Part shown: positions 17,687 through 27,912 of the stretch, piece after piece
Position numbering within the stretch: position 1 is the first letter of the stretch
How the letters are laid out: the number at the start of each line of letters is the position of its first letter
Assembly (NCBI GenBank): GCA_002082585.1
Contig: CP020563.1
Coordinates: forward strand, 6,752,001-6,816,000
DNA: 64,000 nt
Direction of reading: 5' to 3'
Origin: Kitasatospora albolonga
GTDB taxonomy: Bacteria > Actinomycetota > Actinomycetes > Streptomycetales > Streptomycetaceae
The notes under the pieces: generated by a model
The model's database searches: none
Seen by the model: only the letters and a program-made list of their open reading frames with translations
Told to the model about the DNA's origin: nothing
Position numbers and translations under genes: made by a program

Positions 17687-19198
17687 ATGCACCGTTCACA
17701 TCAGGACGCCGACCCGCCCGCGCGCCATGTCGTCGTCCTCGGCGGCGGCATCGCCGGACTGGCCGCCGCCCACCGCCTGGTCGCCACCGGTCTGCGGGTC
17801 ACGCTCCTGGAGGCGACGGACCGGCTCGGCGGCAAGCTGATGACCGGCGAGGTCGCGGGCGTCCGGGTCGACCTCGGCGCCGAGTCGGTGCTCGCCCGCC
17901 GCCCCGAGGCGGTCGCCCTGGCCGAGGCCGTCGGGCTCTCCGGCCGCCTCCAGCCGCCCGCCACCGCCACCGCCTCCCTCTGGACGCGCGACGCGCTGCG
18001 CCCGATGCCCACGGGCCACGTCATGGGCGTCCCCGGCGACCCGGCGGCCCTCGGCGGGGTGCTGTCCCCCGAGGGGCTGGCCCGGATCGCCGAGGAGCGC
18101 GACCTCACCCCGACCCCCGTCGGCGACGATGTGGCGGTCGGCGCGTACGTGGCCGACCGGCTCGGCCGCGAGGTCGTCGACCGGCTGGTGGAACCCCTCC
18201 TCGGCGGGGTCTACGCGGGCGACGCCTACCGGATCTCGCTGCGCGCCGCCGTACCGCAGCTCTACGAAGCGGTGAAGGAGGGCGGCCCGCTGCTGGAGGC
18301 CGTCCGCCGCATCCAGGAGCGCGCGGCGGCCCGGCAGCAGACCGGACCCGTCTTCCAGGGCCTCGCGGGCGGCATCGGCACCCTCCCGGACGCCGTGGCC
18401 GACGCCGTACGGGCCGGGGGCGGCGAGATCCGTACGGAGACCCCCGTCCTCGGCCTGACCCGTAACGGCACGGGCTGGGCGGTCCGCACCGACACCGGGA
18501 TGATCACCGCCGACGGCATCGTCCTGGCCACCCCCGCCTGGTCCGCCTCCGCCCTGCTGGCCGCCGAGTCCCCGGCCGCCTCCGCCGAGCTGGCCGGGGT
18601 GGAGTACGCCTCGATGGCCCTGGTCACGATGGCCTTCCGGCGCGCCGACATCGAGGCGTACGAGGCCCTGCGCGGCCGTTCCGGCTTCCTCGTGCCGCCG
18701 GTCGACGGCCGCACCATCAAGGCGTCCACCTTCTCCACCAACAAGTGGCAGTGGGTCGCCGACGCCGCCCCCGGCCTGTTCGTGCTCCGTACCTCCGTCG
18801 GCCGGTACGGCGAGGAGGAGCACCTGCACCGCGAGGACGGCGAACTCGTCGCCGTATCCCTGCGCGACCTCCGCGAGGCCACCGGACTCGCCGCGCGCCC
18901 CGTCGACACCGAGGTCACCCGCTGGATCGGCGGACTCCCGCAGTACCCGGTCGGCCACCACACCCGGGTCGCCCGCATCCGTGACGAGGTCGCGAAACTG
19001 CCCGCCCTGCGGGTCTGCGGCGCGGTCTACGACGGGGTCGGCATCCCCGCCTGCGTCGCGAGCGCGCAGCGGGCGGCCGACGAGATCGCGGGCGACCTCA
19101 CGGGGCCCGGCGCGGGGCCCGGCACGGGGAAGATCACGAACGAGATCATCGCCACGCCGACCCTGGTTCGGGGCACGGAGAGCGAGGCGGGACAATAG
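17687..19198 (+). CDS. hemY: Coproporphyrinogen III / protoporphyrinogen oxidase
   Basis: 503 residues from ATG 17687. The N-terminus carries the FAD dinucleotide-binding motif [17 protein letters not shown] followed by [12 protein letters not shown]. The C-terminus carries the second FAD motif region [25 protein letters not shown]. This is the HemG/HemY flavoprotein oxidase family. Because it sits 4 bases upstream of hemQ, the likely substrate is coproporphyrinogen III, oxidised to coproporphyrin III (enzyme also called CgoX). It would be soluble or peripherally membrane-bound and is transcribed with hemQ. Confidence 0.92.
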
Positions 19199-19202
19199 CC
19201 GT

Positions 19203-19931
19203 ATGACTGCTCCCGAGAGTGTGACGCCCAGCAAGAGTCCGAACGCCGGAAAGAAGGCCAAGGACCTCAACGAGGTCATCCGCTACACCCTGTGGTCGGT
19301 CTTCAAACTGCGCGACGTACTGCCGCTGGACCGGGCGGGATACGCGGACGAGGTCCAGGAGCTGTTCGACCAGCTCGCGGCCAAGGACATCACCGTGCGC
19401 GGCACCTACGACCTCTCCGGTCTCCGTGCCGACGCCGACCTGATGATCTGGTGGCACGCCGAGACCTCGGACCAGCTCCAGGACGCCTACAACCTCTTCC
19501 GCCGCACCAGGCTCGGCCGCGCGCTGGAGCCGGTCTGGTCGAACATGGCGCTGCACCGCCCCGCCGAGTTCAACAAGTCGCACATCCCGGCGTTCCTCGC
19601 CGACGAGACCCCGCGCGACTACATCAGCGTTTACCCCTTCGTACGGTCCTACGACTGGTACCTGCTGCCGGACGAGGACCGCCGCCGCATGCTCGCGGAC
19701 CACGGCAAGATGGCCCGGGGCTACCCCGACGTCCGCGCCAACACCGTCGCCTCCTTCTCGCTCGGCGACTACGAGTGGATTCTCGCCTTCGAGGCGGACG
19801 AGCTGTACCGCATCGTCGACCTGATGCGTCACCTGCGCGCCTCCGAGGCACGGCTCCACGTGCGCGAGGAGGTCCCGTTCTACACGGGCCGCAGGAAGGA
19901 CATCGCAGACCTGGTGGCCGGGCTCGCATAG
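19203..19931 (+). CDS. hemQ: Coproheme decarboxylase HemQ/ChdC
   Basis: 242 residues from ATG 19203, only four bases after hemY. The chlorite-dismutase fold is recognisable: [11 protein letters not shown] near the N-terminus, LMIWWHAET, the conserved [20 protein letters not shown] block with the catalytic tyrosine, [12 protein letters not shown] with the haem-site His, and [17 protein letters not shown]. It converts coproheme to haem b by two oxidative decarboxylations, the last step of the coproporphyrin-dependent pathway. It ends before a strong bidirectional terminator. Confidence 0.95.
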
Positions 19932-20135: not shown

Positions 20136-21713
20136 CTAGTCCAGCGAGACGGGGTTCGGCTCCGCGCGCGGGGCGCACTCCGCGTCCCCCACGGGCACCG
20201 CGCCCGTCAGCAGATACCGCCGCATGTGCTCGTCCACGCAGGCGTTCCCGAACCCGCCGACGCCATGCGTCCCCGCGCCCCGCTCCGTCACGAGCGCCGC
20301 GCCGCGCAGCCGCCGCTGGAGCTCCAGAGCCCCCTGGTACGGGGTCGCCGCATCGCGCTCCGCCGCCAGGATGAGCACCGGGGGCAGCTCGCCCCACTCC
20401 GTGGAGACGTCCAGCGGCCGCTGCCGGGGCGCGGGCCAGAAGGCGCACGGCAGGTTGGTGAAGGCGTTGTCCCAGGTCTGGAACGGGGCGATGCGGGCGA
20501 GGTCCGTATGGTCGCGGTCCCACACCTCCCACTCCTGCGGCCAGGGCGCGTCGTTGCACTCGACAGCGGTGTAGACGGCCCGCGCGTTCTCGTCGCCCTT
20601 CGCCGTCACCGCGCGCGGCGACATCTGGGTGATCACCGGCTCCGGATTGCCCCGGACGTACTCGGAGAGGGCGGTCGCCCGCATCGCCCAGTAGTCGTCG
20701 TAGTACGCGGCCTGGAGGAACGCCGCGTGGAACTGCCCCGGCCCCACCGTCCCGCCCGCCGGTTCGGCCGCCAGCTCGGTGCGCACGGCGTCGTAATGGC
20801 GCTGTACGGCCTCGGGCGTGGTGCCGAGCCGGTAGACGTCGTCGTGCTGGGCGACCCAGCGCCGGAAGTCCTCCCAGCGGGACTCGAAGGCCAGCGACTG
20901 ATCGAGGTTGGAGCGGTACCAGATCTTCTCCGGGTCCGGGTCGACCGCGGAATCGAGGACCATACGGCGTACGCGTGAGGGAAAGAGGGTCGCGTACAGG
21001 GAACCCAGATACGTGCCGTACGAGGCCCCCATGAAGGTCAGCTGTTCATCACCGAGGGCGGCCCGCAGCACCTCCAGGTCACGGGCGTTGTTGAGCGAGG
21101 TGTAGTGCCGCAGCGCCTCGCCCGCGTTCCGCTCGCACCCCCGCGCGTACGCCCGCGCCTCCGCGATCCGCCGCTCCTTGTACGCGGCCGTCGGGTGGGC
21201 GGGGGAGTCGGTGGGGCTCTTCGCGAACGCGGCGGGGTCCTGGCAGGAGAGCGGGGCGGAGTCGCCGACACCGCGCGGGGCGTACCCGACCATGTCGTAC
21301 GCCGCCGCGACCTCCTTCCACTCGGACATCTCGCCCATCAGCGGGAAGGTGATGCTGGAGGCGCCGGGCCCGCCCGGGTTGTAGACGAAGGACCCCTGGC
21401 GGCCGGCCGCCCCGCCGGTCGCCGGGGAGCGGCTGACGGTGAGTTCGATGGTCCGCCCGTCGGGCCGCGCGTAGTCCAGGGGGACGCTGACGGTGCCGCA
21501 CATCAGCGAGTCCGGCAGCTGCTCCTCCTCCGGGCACGCCCCGAAGGCGATCCCGGCCGCCGCCGCGCGGGCCGCCGCCACCGCCGTACCGCGCTCCTCG
21601 GCGGAGGCGGAGGCGGTGCCGGGGCCGCCGTCCCGGGCGGTCGCGGGGGCGGTGGTCAGGGCGGCGGACAGGACCAGGGAGCCGAGCGTGACGTACAGGG
21701 GTACTGCTCTCAC
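20136..21713 (-). CDS. Secreted TAP-like alpha/beta-hydrolase peptidase
   Basis: 525 residues from GTG 21713, with a signal peptide (hydrophobic residues 4-22, cleavage near ATA-RDG). The fold is alpha/beta hydrolase with the nucleophile in GASYGTYLG, the Asp in AERDAATPYQG and the His in GAGTHGVGG. The C-terminal TAP-like domain contains NDAPWPQEW and NLPCAFWP. This is the tripeptidyl-aminopeptidase/SlpD-SlpE family of mycelium-associated Streptomyces peptidases. It shows VYNPGGPGASS, the usual oxyanion-hole region. It is a single transcription unit between a terminator and a Cys-rich membrane-protein gene. Confidence 0.88.
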   Translation of the reverse strand: MRAVPLYVTLGSLVLSAALTTAPATARDGGPGTASASAEERGTAVAAARAAAAGIAFGACPEEEQLPDSLMCGTVSVPLDYARPDGRTIELTVSRSPATGGAAGRQGSFVYNPGGPGASSITFPLMGEMSEWKEVAAAYDMVGYAPRGVGDSAPLSCQDPAAFAKSPTDSPAHPTAAYKERRIAEARAYARGCERNAGEALRHYTSLNNARDLEVLRAALGDEQLTFMGASYGTYLGSLYATLFPSRVRRMVLDSAVDPDPEKIWYRSNLDQSLAFESRWEDFRRWVAQHDDVYRLGTTPEAVQRHYDAVRTELAAEPAGGTVGPGQFHAAFLQAAYYDDYWAMRATALSEYVRGNPEPVITQMSPRAVTAKGDENARAVYTAVECNDAPWPQEWEVWDRDHTDLARIAPFQTWDNAFTNLPCAFWPAPRQRPLDVSTEWGELPPVLILAAERDAATPYQGALELQRRLRGAALVTERGAGTHGVGGFGNACVDEHMRRYLLTGAVPVGDAECAPRAEPNPVSLD

Positions 21714-21843: not shown

Positions 21844-22881
21844 TCAGGAGCCGCCGCCGCAGCTGGAGCCCCCGCCGCAGCTGGACCCGCCCGAACTCCC
21901 GCAGCTGGACCCGGAGCTGCCGCAGCTCGATCCCGAGCCGCCGCCGCACCCCGACGCCCCGCCGCAGCCGCTCCCGGTCGAGCCCCCGCAACTCGTGTGG
22001 TCCGGGCTCGCGTCGGCGCACCACACCGTGGTGGCGGCCACGCCCGCCACCAGCGCCGCACCTCCCACGTACCCCGGCGTCCGGCTCCCCGAGAAGCCGG
22101 AGCGCGAGCGCCCGGCCGGTGCGGACGCCCGGGCCACCGCGATCAGTTGGTCCTGGAGCACGGGGTCGGGGAGCGCCCGCAGCCCCTGGGTGGCGACGAG
22201 GTACTGCGGGGTCGTCACGTGGGCGTTCGCGGCCCGGAACGCCTGCGCGGCCCTGCGGCCCGCCCGGGTGACCCTCTTGGCGGCGGCCGAGGCCACGACA
22301 AGGCCGCTGATCCCGCCGATCAGGATCGCGGGCAGCACCTTCACGACGAACGGCAACGGCATGTCGAAGGCGGAGTCGTGCGCGATGAACTGGAGGACCG
22401 TGACCCCGATGGAGAGGGGGAACGCGACGAAGCAGCTCACTCCCTGGACCCGCCCCCACCGCCGTACGGACCGGTTCGCGGCGGGCGGGACGAGCAGCCC
22501 GCGCCGCGCGAGCCCGTCGCCGATCTCCTGCACCGCCGGGTGGCGCATCACCGCCTCCCGCACCCCGTGCAGGGCGCCGCTCGGCGCGGTGGACAGCTCC
22601 TGGAGCACGGCGCGTTCCACCGGGTCGTTCGCCTGCGCCCGCTGTACGGAGACGATGCCGGGCCCGCCGATGAGCACCCGGCCGTCCGTGGACAGGGCGA
22701 CGAGCGCGGTGTCCACGACCCTGGCCGGACCGCCGTTGAGGAACGCCGCCTCGTAGAGGTCATGGGCGAGGGGGGAGGCGCCGGCCGGAGCGCGGCGGGA
22801 CCGCGACGCCGCCGCCTTCACGAGGAGGAGCACCGTGGAGAGGGCGACCGCGAGGGTCACCAGGAGGGCGAGCGTGTTCAT
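21844..22881 (-). CDS. TIGR04222-type membrane protein with Cys/Gly/Ser-rich C-terminal tail
   Basis: 345 residues, ATG 22881. Predicted membrane segments: residues 2-22, about 147-165, about 175-198 and about 270-288. The N-terminal cytoplasmic part (DLYEAAFLNGGPARVVDTAL) matches what I know as the TIGR04222 domain. The last 58 residues are low complexity, built of Gly, Ser and Cys, with cysteines at 288, 298, 306, 312, 320, 327, 335 and 341 at 6-10 residue spacing. It starts 6 bases after the DUF692 gene, so the two are co-transcribed. DUF692 enzymes modify cysteines of ribosomal peptides, which makes the tail a plausible substrate. Function is not established. Confidence 0.82.
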   Translation of the reverse strand: MNTLALLVTLAVALSTVLLLVKAAASRSRRAPAGASPLAHDLYEAAFLNGGPARVVDTALVALSTDGRVLIGGPGIVSVQRAQANDPVERAVLQELSTAPSGALHGVREAVMRHPAVQEIGDGLARRGLLVPPAANRSVRRWGRVQGVSCFVAFPLSIGVTVLQFIAHDSAFDMPLPFVVKVLPAILIGGISGLVVASAAAKRVTRAGRRAAQAFRAANAHVTTPQYLVATQGLRALPDPVLQDQLIAVARASAPAGRSRSGFSGSRTPGYVGGAALVAGVAATTVWCADASPDHTSCGGSTGSGCGGASGCGGGSGSSCGSSGSSCGSSGGSSCGGGSSCGGGS

Positions 22882-22887
22882 GGCGAT

Positions 22888-24483
22888 TCACTTTCCTACG
22901 AGGACGGCACGCGCCGCACGGACGAGACGGGTGGTCCGGCGCGGCGGACGGATGCCGGAGCGGTCCTCCCACCAGTGGGTCAGCCGACGCTGCGCCACGG
23001 GGTCGGGGAGGCCGCCGGAGATCAGGACGTGCTCCGCGAAGTCGAGGGCGTCACGCCGGTAACCGCCGCTCATGGGACGGGACCTGGCGTACGCGAGGAA
23101 CGCGGCGCGGTAGCCGTCACCGAGGATCTCCGGCAGCTCGGGCGCCACCTTGGCGACGACACCGGCCCGCTTGGCGGCCAGCGCCCGGCTCTGCACGCGC
23201 AGCCGCCGGTGGTCGAAGCGCTCGGGGGCCGGGGTTCCGGCGACGAGCGCGGAGAGCAGCGCGGTCTGGGCGACGGCGGTACGGTCGCGGGCGCCGGGGG
23301 GTGCGACGGGCGTTTCCGCGGGAGGCGCGGCCTTGGCGGCTTCGGCCGGGGCGGTACGGGCCGCATGCGCGTCGGGCTCCGCGGTACGGGCTGTACGCGC
23401 CCCGGCTCCGGCTGTACGCGCTTCGGTCGCGGTCGTACGGGCTGCACGCGCGTCGGGCTCCGCGGTCCGGCCCGTACGCGCCCCGGCTCCGGCTGTACGC
23501 GCTTCGGTCGCGGTCGTACGGGCTGCACGCGCGTCGGGCTCCGCGGTCCGGCCCGTACGCGCCCCGGCTCCGGTCGCAGTCGTACAGGCCACACGCGCCC
23601 CGGCTCCGGTCGTGCGTGCCTCGGTCCCCGTCGAACGGACCGTACGTGCCTCGGCCGCCGGGCCCGCCGCCCGCAGCGTGGCCCGGATCGTCTCCAGTTC
23701 GGCCGCGAGCTCCGCGCCGGGCGGGAAGGCGTCGTCGCGCTCCAGCAGCACGCCCGGCGGGTCGACCCGGGAGCGCAGTTCGGCCAGTACGCCGAGGACC
23801 GGCGCGGTCACCGGGTGGGCGTGCGTGTCGTGCCAGACGCCGTTCTTCTCGATGCCGCCCGCCACATGGACGTACGCGATGGCCTCCACCGGCAGCTCGT
23901 CCAGCGCCTTCGCCGGGTCCTCGCCCCGGTTGACGTGGTTGGTGTGCAGGTTGGCCACGTCGATGAGCAGCCGCACCCCGGTCCGCTCGACCAGCTCCGC
24001 CAGGAACTGCCCCTCGGTCAGCTCCTCGTCGGGCCAGGAGATCAGCGCCGCGATGTTCTCCAGGGCCAGCGGCACGGGCAGCGCGTCCTGGGCGATGCGT
24101 ACGTTCTCGCAGAGCACCGCCAGCGCGTCCCAGGTGCGGGGGACCGGCAGCAGATGGCCCGCCTCCAGCCGGGGCGATGCGGTCAGCGGCCCCCCGGCCC
24201 GTACGAACGCGATGTGCTCGGTCACCAGCGGCGTACCGAGCAGCTCCGCCCGCGCCGCCAGCCCCGCGAGCCGCTCGGCGTCCGGGCGGTCCGCGCCGCC
24301 CAGGTCGAGCGAGACGCCGTGCGGTACGACGGTCACGCCCCGCTCCCGCAGCCGTACCAGGGAGTCCGGGAGGTGGTCGGCGCAGAGGTTCTCCGCCACC
24401 GCCTCCACCCAGTCGATCCCCTTGAGCGCCTCCACCTCGGCCGCGATCTCCGGCCGCCAGCCGATCCCGATGCCCAGCTTCAT
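22888..24483 (-). CDS. DUF692 (MNIO) oxidase with repetitive linker and fused C-terminal domain
   Basis: 531 residues, ATG 24483 with GGAGGAGGGGGA upstream. Residues 1-275 are the DUF692 TIM barrel; candidate iron ligands are H55 ([10 protein letters not shown]), H90 (TEH), E142 (LENIAAL), D175 and H180 (DVANLHTN), H206 (HVAGG), H219-H223 (HDTHAH) and E249 (LLERD). DUF692 enzymes, now called multinuclear non-haem iron oxidases, modify cysteines in methanobactins, bufferins and similar peptides. Residues 280-400 are an Ala/Arg/Thr-rich linker with 27-residue repeats. Residues 405-531 form a helical domain (RLRVQ..., [18 protein letters not shown]) that resembles the DUF2063/BufC-type partner proteins of MNIOs. 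Confidence 0.85.
23361..23575. repeat. 81-bp tandem repeat inside the DUF692 gene
   Basis: Two full 81-bp units and a partial third begin at 23361, 23441 and 23522. The second and third units are identical over about 50 bases. In the protein they encode 27-residue units ([20 protein letters not shown]..., residues 324-350 and 351-377, plus a shortened copy at 301-323). The near identity indicates recent slippage or recombination, in frame. Confidence 0.9.
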
Positions 24484-24593: not shown

Positions 24594-25343
24594 TCACGGC
24601 ATCGGCGGCATCGTCGGCGGCACCGGGCGCGAGGTGAACGACTGGTCGCCGGAGGGCGTCACCGGCACCGGGGCCAGCGGAACCTGCCCCTCACGCGGCG
24701 CAGGCGGGCCCGAGGGGCTGGCCGTGGAGCCGCCGGCCGCCTCGCGCGCCAGGGCGTCGAAGTCGACGAAGCCGGTGGCCTCCAGCATGGTGATGTGGTC
24801 CAGCACTGTCTGGTTCGCGTCACTGGCGAGCTGCCGGATCAGGGTGTTGCGGGTGGTGTGCCGGACCTGGCCGATCAGCCCGAAGACCTTGCCGTGGGCG
24901 ATGCGCAGGATGTTGGCGAACTTCCGCTCGTACTCGTCCCCGCTCGCCGCCGTCAGCTCCCGCAGCCACGCCTGCTGCTGCTCGGTCGGCTGGTTGGGCA
25001 GCTCCACCCCGAGCTTCGCGGCCACGTCGCGGGCCCGCCGGTCCAGGTCGGTGTGGCCGACGACCAGATGGTCCCCGGCGGCCTTCGTCGCCTCGCTGGG
25101 CGCCCGCTCGATCGCCTGCTGCCCGGCGGGCAGCTCCCACAGCCCGGCGAGCCGCACCTTGACCAGGAAGTCCCGGTCCGTCGCGGAGAGCGGGCCCCAC
25201 TGGGTGGCGACGCTGGAGGCGTTGAGGTTCGCCTCGCCGGTGCCCGAACGGTCCGCGTAGGACCAGACGGGGAAGGCCAGCGCGCCGAGGGTGGCGACCA
25301 GGGCCGCGATGATGAGGGCCGTTCCGTTGATGCGTCGCAACAA
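24594..25343 (-). CDS. DUF4142 domain protein, exported
   Basis: About 249 residues. I choose the TTG at 25343 because GGGAGACACC is correctly spaced before it and the protein then starts basic (LLRRINGT) with a hydrophobic helix at once; a TTG at 25415 in the same frame has no ribosome site. After the signal/anchor (ALIIAALVATLGALAFPVWS) the DUF4142 domain follows (LSATDRDFLVKVRLAGLWELPAGQQ..., helical bundle to about residue 200). The tail is Pro-rich. DUF4142 proteins are exported ferritin-like bundles of unknown role. The start is uncertain. Confidence 0.75.
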   Translation of the reverse strand: MLRRINGTALIIAALVATLGALAFPVWSYADRSGTGEANLNASSVATQWGPLSATDRDFLVKVRLAGLWELPAGQQAIERAPSEATKAAGDHLVVGHTDLDRRARDVAAKLGVELPNQPTEQQQAWLRELTAASGDEYERKFANILRIAHGKVFGLIGQVRHTTRNTLIRQLASDANQTVLDHITMLEATGFVDFDALAREAAGGSTASPSGPPAPREGQVPLAPVPVTPSGDQSFTSRPVPPTMPPMP

Positions 25344-25500
25344 GGTGTCTCCCGGGCCGAGAACGTGACAGCGTCGGTCAACCGGACGCCGACCGACCGA
25401 CCGGACGTCGATCAACCGCCAACCGGCTGACTGCGCAGGCTACTTGGCGGTCATGCCGGTGGGGCGGTACCGGGAGATACGTGGTCGGGCGCGGAAACAC

Positions 25501-27237: not shown

Positions 27238-27912
27238 ATGAAGAGCGATCTGTTTTCCAGCGAGCACCTGGCCCAGCCGGCCACCGCCCCCGGCATGACC
27301 CTCCAGAACCCCAAGTCGATCAAGTACGCCGTGAACGGGGAGATGCACGCCCGCCAGGGCTCGATGATCGCCTTCCGCGGCAACCTCCAGTTCGAGCGCA
27401 AGGGCCAGGGGATCGGCGGTCTGCTCAAGCGCGCGGTCACCGGCGAGGGCCTCGCGCTCATGGCCGTACGCGGCCAGGGCGAGGCGTGGTTCGCGCACGA
27501 GGCCGCCAACTGTTTCATCGTGGAGATGGACCAGGGCGACCAGTTCACCATCAACGGCCGCAACGTCCTCTGTTTCGACGCCACTCTCTCGTACGAGATC
27601 AAGACGGTGAAGGGCGCCGGGATGGTCGGCGGCGGCCTCTTCAACAGCGTCTTCTCCGGCCACGGCAAGATCGGCCTCATATGTGAGGGCACCCCGATCG
27701 TGATCCCTGTGACGGCCGCCCAGCCGGTGTACGTGGACACCGACGCGGTCGTCGGCTGGAGCCAGCAGCTCACGACCACCCTGCACCGCTCCCAGAGCGT
27801 CGGCTCGATGGTGCGCGGCGGCTCGGGCGAGGCCGTGCAGCTGATGCTCCAGGGCGAGGGGTTCGTCATCGTGCGGCCCAGCGAGGCGAGGCCCGACCGG
27901 ACGTCCAACTGA
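27238..27912 (+). CDS. AIM24 family protein
   Basis: 224 residues from ATG 27238, chosen for GGTGAGGA eight bases upstream over another ATG at 27229. It is a beta-rich protein with the AIM24 pattern: MHARQGSMIAFRGNLQFERKG, then VEMDQGDQFTINGRNVLCFDATL, GGGLFNSVFSGHGKIGL and GTPIVIPVTAAQPVYVDTDAVVGWS. No signal or membrane helix. Family function in bacteria is unknown; the fold is a TRAP-like jelly roll. It is divergent from the Pth2-like gene. Confidence 0.87.
   Translation: MKSDLFSSEHLAQPATAPGMTLQNPKSIKYAVNGEMHARQGSMIAFRGNLQFERKGQGIGGLLKRAVTGEGLALMAVRGQGEAWFAHEAANCFIVEMDQGDQFTINGRNVLCFDATLSYEIKTVKGAGMVGGGLFNSVFSGHGKIGLICEGTPIVIPVTAAQPVYVDTDAVVGWSQQLTTTLHRSQSVGSMVRGGSGEAVQLMLQGEGFVIVRPSEARPDRTSN

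Follow-up and report, generated by a model that had tools for sequence, protein, structure and literature searches.

TIGR04222 proteins carrying C-terminal Ser/Gly-rich segments with cysteines, often encoded beside MNIO (DUF692) genes and chiefly in Actinomycetota, were described by Antoine et al. (2025, Microb Genom; PMC12452194), and subsets of them were proposed as MNIO substrates with PME-type 2 partners. According to that paper, such a partner is encoded in at least 10% of the TIGR04222 clusters, with many clusters seemingly lacking one. The present analysis concerns a locus of this kind in Kitasatospora albolonga, lying in a stretch of 64,000 nucleotides of contig CP020563.1 (the window), where an MNIO gene adjoins the gene of a TIGR04222 membrane protein that ends in a Gly/Ser/Cys tail. 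The locus probably encodes a protein-modification pair, in which an MNIO fused to its own partner domain would act on the Cys tail of the co-encoded membrane protein. That such tails are MNIO substrates is not a new idea, having been in print since 2025 (PMC12452194). What is added here is the MNIO-partner fusion, a partner domain at all TIGR-type MNIO loci examined, a tabulation of tail against MNIO across genomes, a second tail carrier and a preference for a cytosolic tail, which the published account places in the periplasm. Neither the fusion of an MNIO with PF26136, the putative partner family, nor the cross-tabulation nor the second carrier is described in the main-text parts of Antoine et al. 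used here, and a literature search on TIGR04222 and MNIO/DUF692 brought up no other paper recognised as treating the pair.

The oxazolin (HvfABC) and bufferin (BufABC) systems resemble this locus in that an MNIO and its partner act on repeated cysteines followed by glycine; HvfA has the repeat AEGKCGEGKCG, and the C-G context of its EGKCG resembles the Gly/Ser-flanked cysteines of TIGR04222 tails. Their precursors, however, are Sec-exported and their partner is of the DUF2063-RRE type, whereas the carrier here is an integral membrane protein and the partner falls below the DUF2063 cut-off. The window MNIO also scores far under the NCBIfam equivalog cut-offs for BufB (172.4 against 310 bits) and HvfB (142.1 against 360 bits), and both assignments were rejected. 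Nor was the system taken for a bufferin, since its tail is on a TIGR04222 protein modelled with three long helices and its partner is not at the DUF2063 cut-off. Bufferin-like operons were observed elsewhere in Streptomycetaceae; at five loci (L022-L026) they comprise a precursor candidate with 8-9 Cys, an MNIO and a following gene, which was DUF2063 at each of the three loci scanned for it, and all five also encode a protein of roughly 411-435 aa with an 'AAYLE[ML]ST.PMYLY' stretch.

The MNIO enzyme and its fused, probable partner domain

The MNIO gene (22888..24483, minus strand) is an open reading frame of 531 aa with a PF05114 match and a fused C-terminal domain assigned to PF26136, the latter match being precomputed on the identical protein P0002. 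Its catalytic domain (residues 1-270; 23674..24483, minus strand) matches PF05114 over residues 4-270 with 255.4 bits against a cut-off of 25 (Pfam profile search), contains the MNIO motifs, including ERD, and aligns to the TglHI, 3bww and MbnB chains. Six motif patterns were kept in all 38 fused loci surveyed, and HG[VIL]S[LI] in 34 of them. We take these motifs of the 531-aa protein to be the conserved metal site, the ligand roles likewise being assumed. By its sequence the protein is a member of the MNIO superfamily, with a putative iron-dependent oxidase activity. It gives the one PF05114 match of the source genome (8.03 Mb, single contig), which likewise has one TIGR04222 match, and its closest named relatives in a protein search were from Streptomyces, plus one from Kitasatospora.

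Beyond an Ala/Arg/Thr/Glu-rich linker (about residues 271-394; 23302..23673, minus strand), the last ~137 residues make up a second domain (residues 395-531 and stop; 22888..23301, minus strand), which the first-pass annotation had overlooked. The linker DNA contains a repeat with a period of 81 bp in 2.9 copies (23339-23573; Tandem Repeats Finder, TRF), and linker length varies among close relatives (P0001-P0006), proteins of 531 and 504 aa differing by one 27-aa unit. The second domain was modelled as all-helical (predicted local distance difference test score, pLDDT, 85.9) and its best fold matches were TglI and MbnC, both known MNIO partners, while NGO1945 (3dee) was not among the best 50 fold matches listed. 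A DUF2063 match was weak (13.5 bits against a cut-off of 27.2) and hhalign gave probabilities of only 16% and 0.6%, so that a bona fide DUF2063 identity was rejected; a sequence search of the PDB with the partner profile returned nothing meaningful (best E 0.45). The domain thus combines several characters of PME-type 2 proteins, being encoded with an MNIO, below the DUF2063 cut-off and related in fold to TglI, and is very probably an MNIO partner.

Across 150 genomes of the same family, the PF26136 domain was present at all 107 TIGR-type MNIO loci, fused in 38 and separate in 69, where it forms its own gene downstream of the MNIO; this differs from the published figure of at least 10%. Fusion was found at 77 of 80 near-relative loci and separation at three, a ratio that close kinship makes unusable as a rate. 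Tail and partner genes were re-read from stop-to-stop frames, and MNIO genes outside the family that were unattached to a fetched TIGR04222 gene (e.g. G244, G254, G332, G264 and G366) were excluded from the partner status. The predicted fold of the fused domain, together with the alignment of the MNIO domain, likens the protein to TglHI and MbnBC, but here the partner is joined in cis by an expandable linker, and what would be modified is the tail of a protein instead of a free peptide. Additional domains are also borne by two other MNIOs, ChrH and MovX, in the latter as an RRE/winged helix fused at the C-terminus; the domain here, all-helical, TglI/MbnC-like and of family PF26136, would seem to be of another kind.

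The cysteine tail and its co-occurrence with the enzyme

The second gene on the minus strand (21844..22881) encodes the 345-aa TIGR04222 membrane protein, the putative substrate carrier, which matched its family with 162.6 bits against a cut-off of 43. The first-pass annotation of this DNA had placed the two genes 6 bases apart and listed eight tail cysteines, and both statements were accurate. The gap is 22882-22887, both genes exceed their family cut-offs, and the low-pLDDT Gly/Ser/Cys tail (residues 288-345; 21847..22020, minus strand) has cysteines at 288, 298, 306, 312, 320, 327, 335 and 341, with one further cysteine, C150, inside the second predicted membrane helix. Such a tail is borne by one of the 616 stop-to-stop frames (at least 50 aa) of the window. 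It was also flagged in 80 of 15,959 frames from 140 fetched loci and 14 kb of the window, 76 of the 80 being TIGR04222 proteins, although this sample is not random because the loci were chosen for holding MNIO or TIGR04222 genes.

Among 120 close relatives, counting the window's own protein, tails differ in their Gly/Ser sequence and in length (a median of 63 and at most 93 residues beyond the WCA motif), and the Cys count of that part is 5-8 in 114. The majority of these cysteines are flanked by Gly/Ser and their commonest gaps are 6, 8, 9 and 12. Close relatives supplied 103 unique tails, in which only one of 615 Cys-Cys gaps did not exceed 2, where 500 shuffles gave a mean of 130 such gaps and a minimum of 100, and the gap variance was 6.3 against a shuffle mean of 44 and minimum of 36.9; because the tails are related, the test is not one of independent samples.

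Within the family, with a Cys tail defined as at least three Cys after the TIGR04222 domain, the tail was found in 77 of the 106 genomes with a TIGR-type MNIO (77 of 96 when only those with an observed TIGR04222 gene are counted) and in none of the 19 with TIGR04222 that lack such an MNIO, some of which have only other-type or partial MNIOs. Fisher p values, uncorrected for kinship, were 8.5e-10 for the 106-genome and 1.5e-11 for the 96-genome table. One of the 77 positive genomes (G115) rests on an apparently frame-shifted reading; MNIO places of less than 200 bits and a duplicate contig (G038:C1560) were excluded from the fetched loci, and G051 and G074, below cut-off, were omitted from the tail count. 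All eight Cys-tail loci away from an MNIO belong to genomes having an MNIO elsewhere.

Outside the family, where the rule asked for three or more flanked Cys among the final 80 residues, the tail was present in 24 of 25 MNIO-bearing and two of 26 MNIO-less genomes, after 12 of 66 genomes with TIGR04222 matches, all below cut-off, had been left out. In one of the two MNIO-less exceptions (G224), the contig ends inside an MNIO gene, also a profile match, starting just past the TIGR04222 gene; the other (G318) has a long extension unlike Gly/Ser tails. Two genomes with only an other-type MNIO had no tail and one with a partial MNIO had one, while several MNIO-less relatives have kept Gly-rich TIGR04222 tails without Cys.

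Sequence comparison establishes that the MNIO and PF26136 are fused here and encoded separately elsewhere, that the motifs are intact, that the tail is present and its cysteines regularly spaced, and that tail and enzyme co-occur. The first-pass proposal of a membrane-anchored tail as MNIO substrate gains from both tabulations, and the tail is likely to be a substrate, though probably not the sole one.

Four of the 80 flagged tails are not on TIGR04222 proteins. All four come from one genus and lie immediately past the partner domain (scan-derived stop-to-stop frames L047:5105-5584, L052:5100-6134 and L094:2868-4712 on the minus strand and L058:6644-7639 on the plus strand). This second carrier has roughly 140-150 residues, a single helix with Arg clusters just past it and a stretch rich in His, with 7-8 Cys among its final 80 residues, and was found in all four examined genomes of its genus at that locus only (in G038 on the duplicate contig too). 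A tail on an unrelated anchor in the same operon lends independent support to the view that the enzyme needs the tail rather than the TIGR04222 domain, and the His/Cys single-helix protein is a candidate second substrate family. At another locus the MNIO and a TIGR04222 gene enclose a frame of 120 aa (L220:3909-4271, plus strand) whose end is dense in Gly, Ser and Cys and which may be a tail put out of frame.

Tail-less loci and alternative readings

Several observations weigh against the tail as the general substrate. No Cys tail was found within about 6 kb at 30 of the 107 MNIO loci, two of them cut by contig ends, and a tail scan that recovered 80 of 85 positives found none at these 30. The first-pass annotation had named many MNIO genomes without a Cys tail as the finding that would refute it; such genomes do occur, so that this holds in part, alongside the 77 of 106 that have a tail. 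Among them are most members of the main tail-less clade, 17 loci with a fused MNIO and intact motifs, in which the median ratio of nonsynonymous to synonymous substitution rates of the MNIO is 0.134 (136 pairs) as against 0.224 (78 pairs) in tail-bearing relatives. Since the enzyme of this clade is under purifying selection, it probably has another substrate there. Kinship is also a real limit to the co-occurrence result, only two supported pairs being available for a paired test on the HemQ tree.

A replacement gene near the tail-less MNIOs was looked for and not found, since of the gene families present at 8 or more of 28 compared loci none was confined to the tail-less clade, and none of the distant second TIGR04222 copies found in eight genomes has more than one Cys in its Gly/Ser end. 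The CxxxC of a short TIGR04222 paralogue was considered as an alternative substrate, being present in 16 of 16 short proteins at tail-less fused loci, and was rejected as lineage-specific because it is also found in 7 of 17 at MNIO-less and 4 of 8 at tail-bearing fused loci. A 63-aa six-Cys protein (L113:3026-3217, plus strand), which we presume to be zinc-ribbon-like, recurs in related form at fused loci, at 14 of the 21 without a tail and 7 of the 17 with one. For the gene at about 27238-27912 of the window, the fused loci compared show relatives close to the MNIO at 8 of the 12 with a tail and at none of the 16 without, which may simply reflect distance. A DUF4142 gene with a Pro-rich end (24594-25415) lies upstream of the MNIO and has relatives at 21 of 38 fused loci, at several tail-less ones between the MNIO and the short TIGR04222 gene. 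The next gene past TIGR04222 encodes a TAP-like hydrolase (PF08386) with eight Cys (20136-21713), whose relatives were seen at 23 of the 38 fused loci, both tail-bearing and tail-less. The operon further adjoins genes that we take to be hemY- and hemQ-like (17687-19931 in the window, and at most family loci). HemQ was present at 46 of 56 separate and 15 of 17 fused loci with a tail. Since 16 of the 17 MNIO-less loci whose TIGR04222 gene lacks a tail have it too, HemQ goes with the locus rather than the MNIO.

It may be asked whether the MNIO-partner acts mainly on some other cellular protein, the Cys tail being a linked passenger or an occasional substrate. The 17-locus clade, with its intact, slowly evolving fused enzyme and no tail seen, would fit this, as would the tail-less TIGR04222 paralogue at the hemY-hemQ-like locus with or without an MNIO (16 of 17 MNIO-less tail-less loci); yet the tail is missing from all 19 family genomes with TIGR04222 but no TIGR-type MNIO, and a similar tail is found on an unrelated carrier adjoining the same enzyme, and the explanation seems rather improbable. 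An unmodified tail, in which a low-complexity Gly/Ser sequence offers free thiols for metal binding or disulphides and the MNIO link is operon history, is very unlikely. Several TIGR04222 proteins of MNIO-less genomes do have Gly-rich, Cys-free tails, and the tail DNA contains tandem repeats (TRF), a sign that slippage can lengthen it, but the co-occurrence of tail and MNIO spans several families, Cys spacing is regular in close relatives and the eight tails away from an MNIO are all in MNIO-bearing genomes.

A further alternative accepts the tail as substrate and places it outside, with modification before or during translocation as in bufferins. An exposed, periplasmic tail was proposed from AlphaFold2 models and predicted topology by Antoine et al. 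(PMC12452194), and the first-pass annotation had spoken of display on a membrane anchor. The window protein has a stretch of weak hydrophobicity (1.53) at 270-290, which allows some doubt about the side, and the charge signal is weaker family-wide, the loop after helix 3 having on average 4.84 basic and 4.67 acidic residues. The AlphaFold2 model, however, has three long helices (2-28, 133-167 and 178-201) with pLDDT below 50 at 257-337 and 342-345, the TIGR04222 profile has three hydrophobic segments and no fourth, and a fourth pre-tail segment reaches a hydrophobicity of 1.4 in only one of 17 fused-locus tail proteins, the window's own, and one of 57 separate-locus ones. With basic residues in the tail-side loops of the window protein and Arg clusters in the second carrier added to this, a cytosolic tail is favoured as the somewhat more probable placement and an exposed one appears unlikely. 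A cytosolic tail would be on the enzyme's own side.

Proposed chemistry and significance

In the modification pair preferred here, the MNIO oxidase, covalently joined to its own substrate-recognition or cofactor-tuning domain, would oxidise several cysteines in the [S/G]-C-[G/S] context of the C-terminal Gly/Ser/Cys tail of the three-helix membrane protein, presumably on the cytosolic side. As with oxazolin and bufferins, the most plausible products would be heterocycles of which 5-thiooxazole is an example, though thiooxazole-type chemistry on this tail is suggested only as a possibility somewhat short of even. The outcome may be a membrane-tethered tail serving soft metals (Cu-type) or redox stress, with metal binding rated slightly below the thiooxazole chemistry in probability. 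There are two hints of function. The product of HvfBC contains copper-binding 5-thiooxazoles, and SCO6045 of Streptomyces coelicolor was 3.0-fold up with H2O2 in the wild type and is among 28 genes deregulated in an HbpS-SenS-SenR mutant, alongside cysteine biosynthesis genes (PMC4991794). SCO6045 may be an MNIO-partner or partner gene, to judge by the SCO6045 name that the fused domain bears.

It is conceivable, and proposed with due reserve, that the system is tail-centred and carrier-independent, MNIO-partner enzymes, repeatedly fused, converting cysteines of a Gly/Ser/Cys tail on any membrane carrier, be it the three-helix TIGR04222 protein or the single-helix His/Cys one. The modified tails would then correspond to the exported bufferins, but be tethered to the inner membrane and face the cytosol, with a role in stress from soft metals or from peroxide and thiols.

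An HvfB-HvfC fusion was engineered by Manley et al. because the two proteins interact weakly, and was an effective mimic of the complex; the window-type fusion is its apparent natural equivalent. For clusters with no visible partner gene, Antoine et al. (PMC12452194) left open if, and by what means, the TIGR04222 protein is modified. As a partner is present at every TIGR-type locus examined, separate or fused, this question can be tested with a single natural fusion protein. The tail-less clade, for its part, points to a second substrate. The MNIO substrates characterised in the literature reviewed are peptides; if the present proposal is true, a membrane protein would here be modified by a widespread actinobacterial system.
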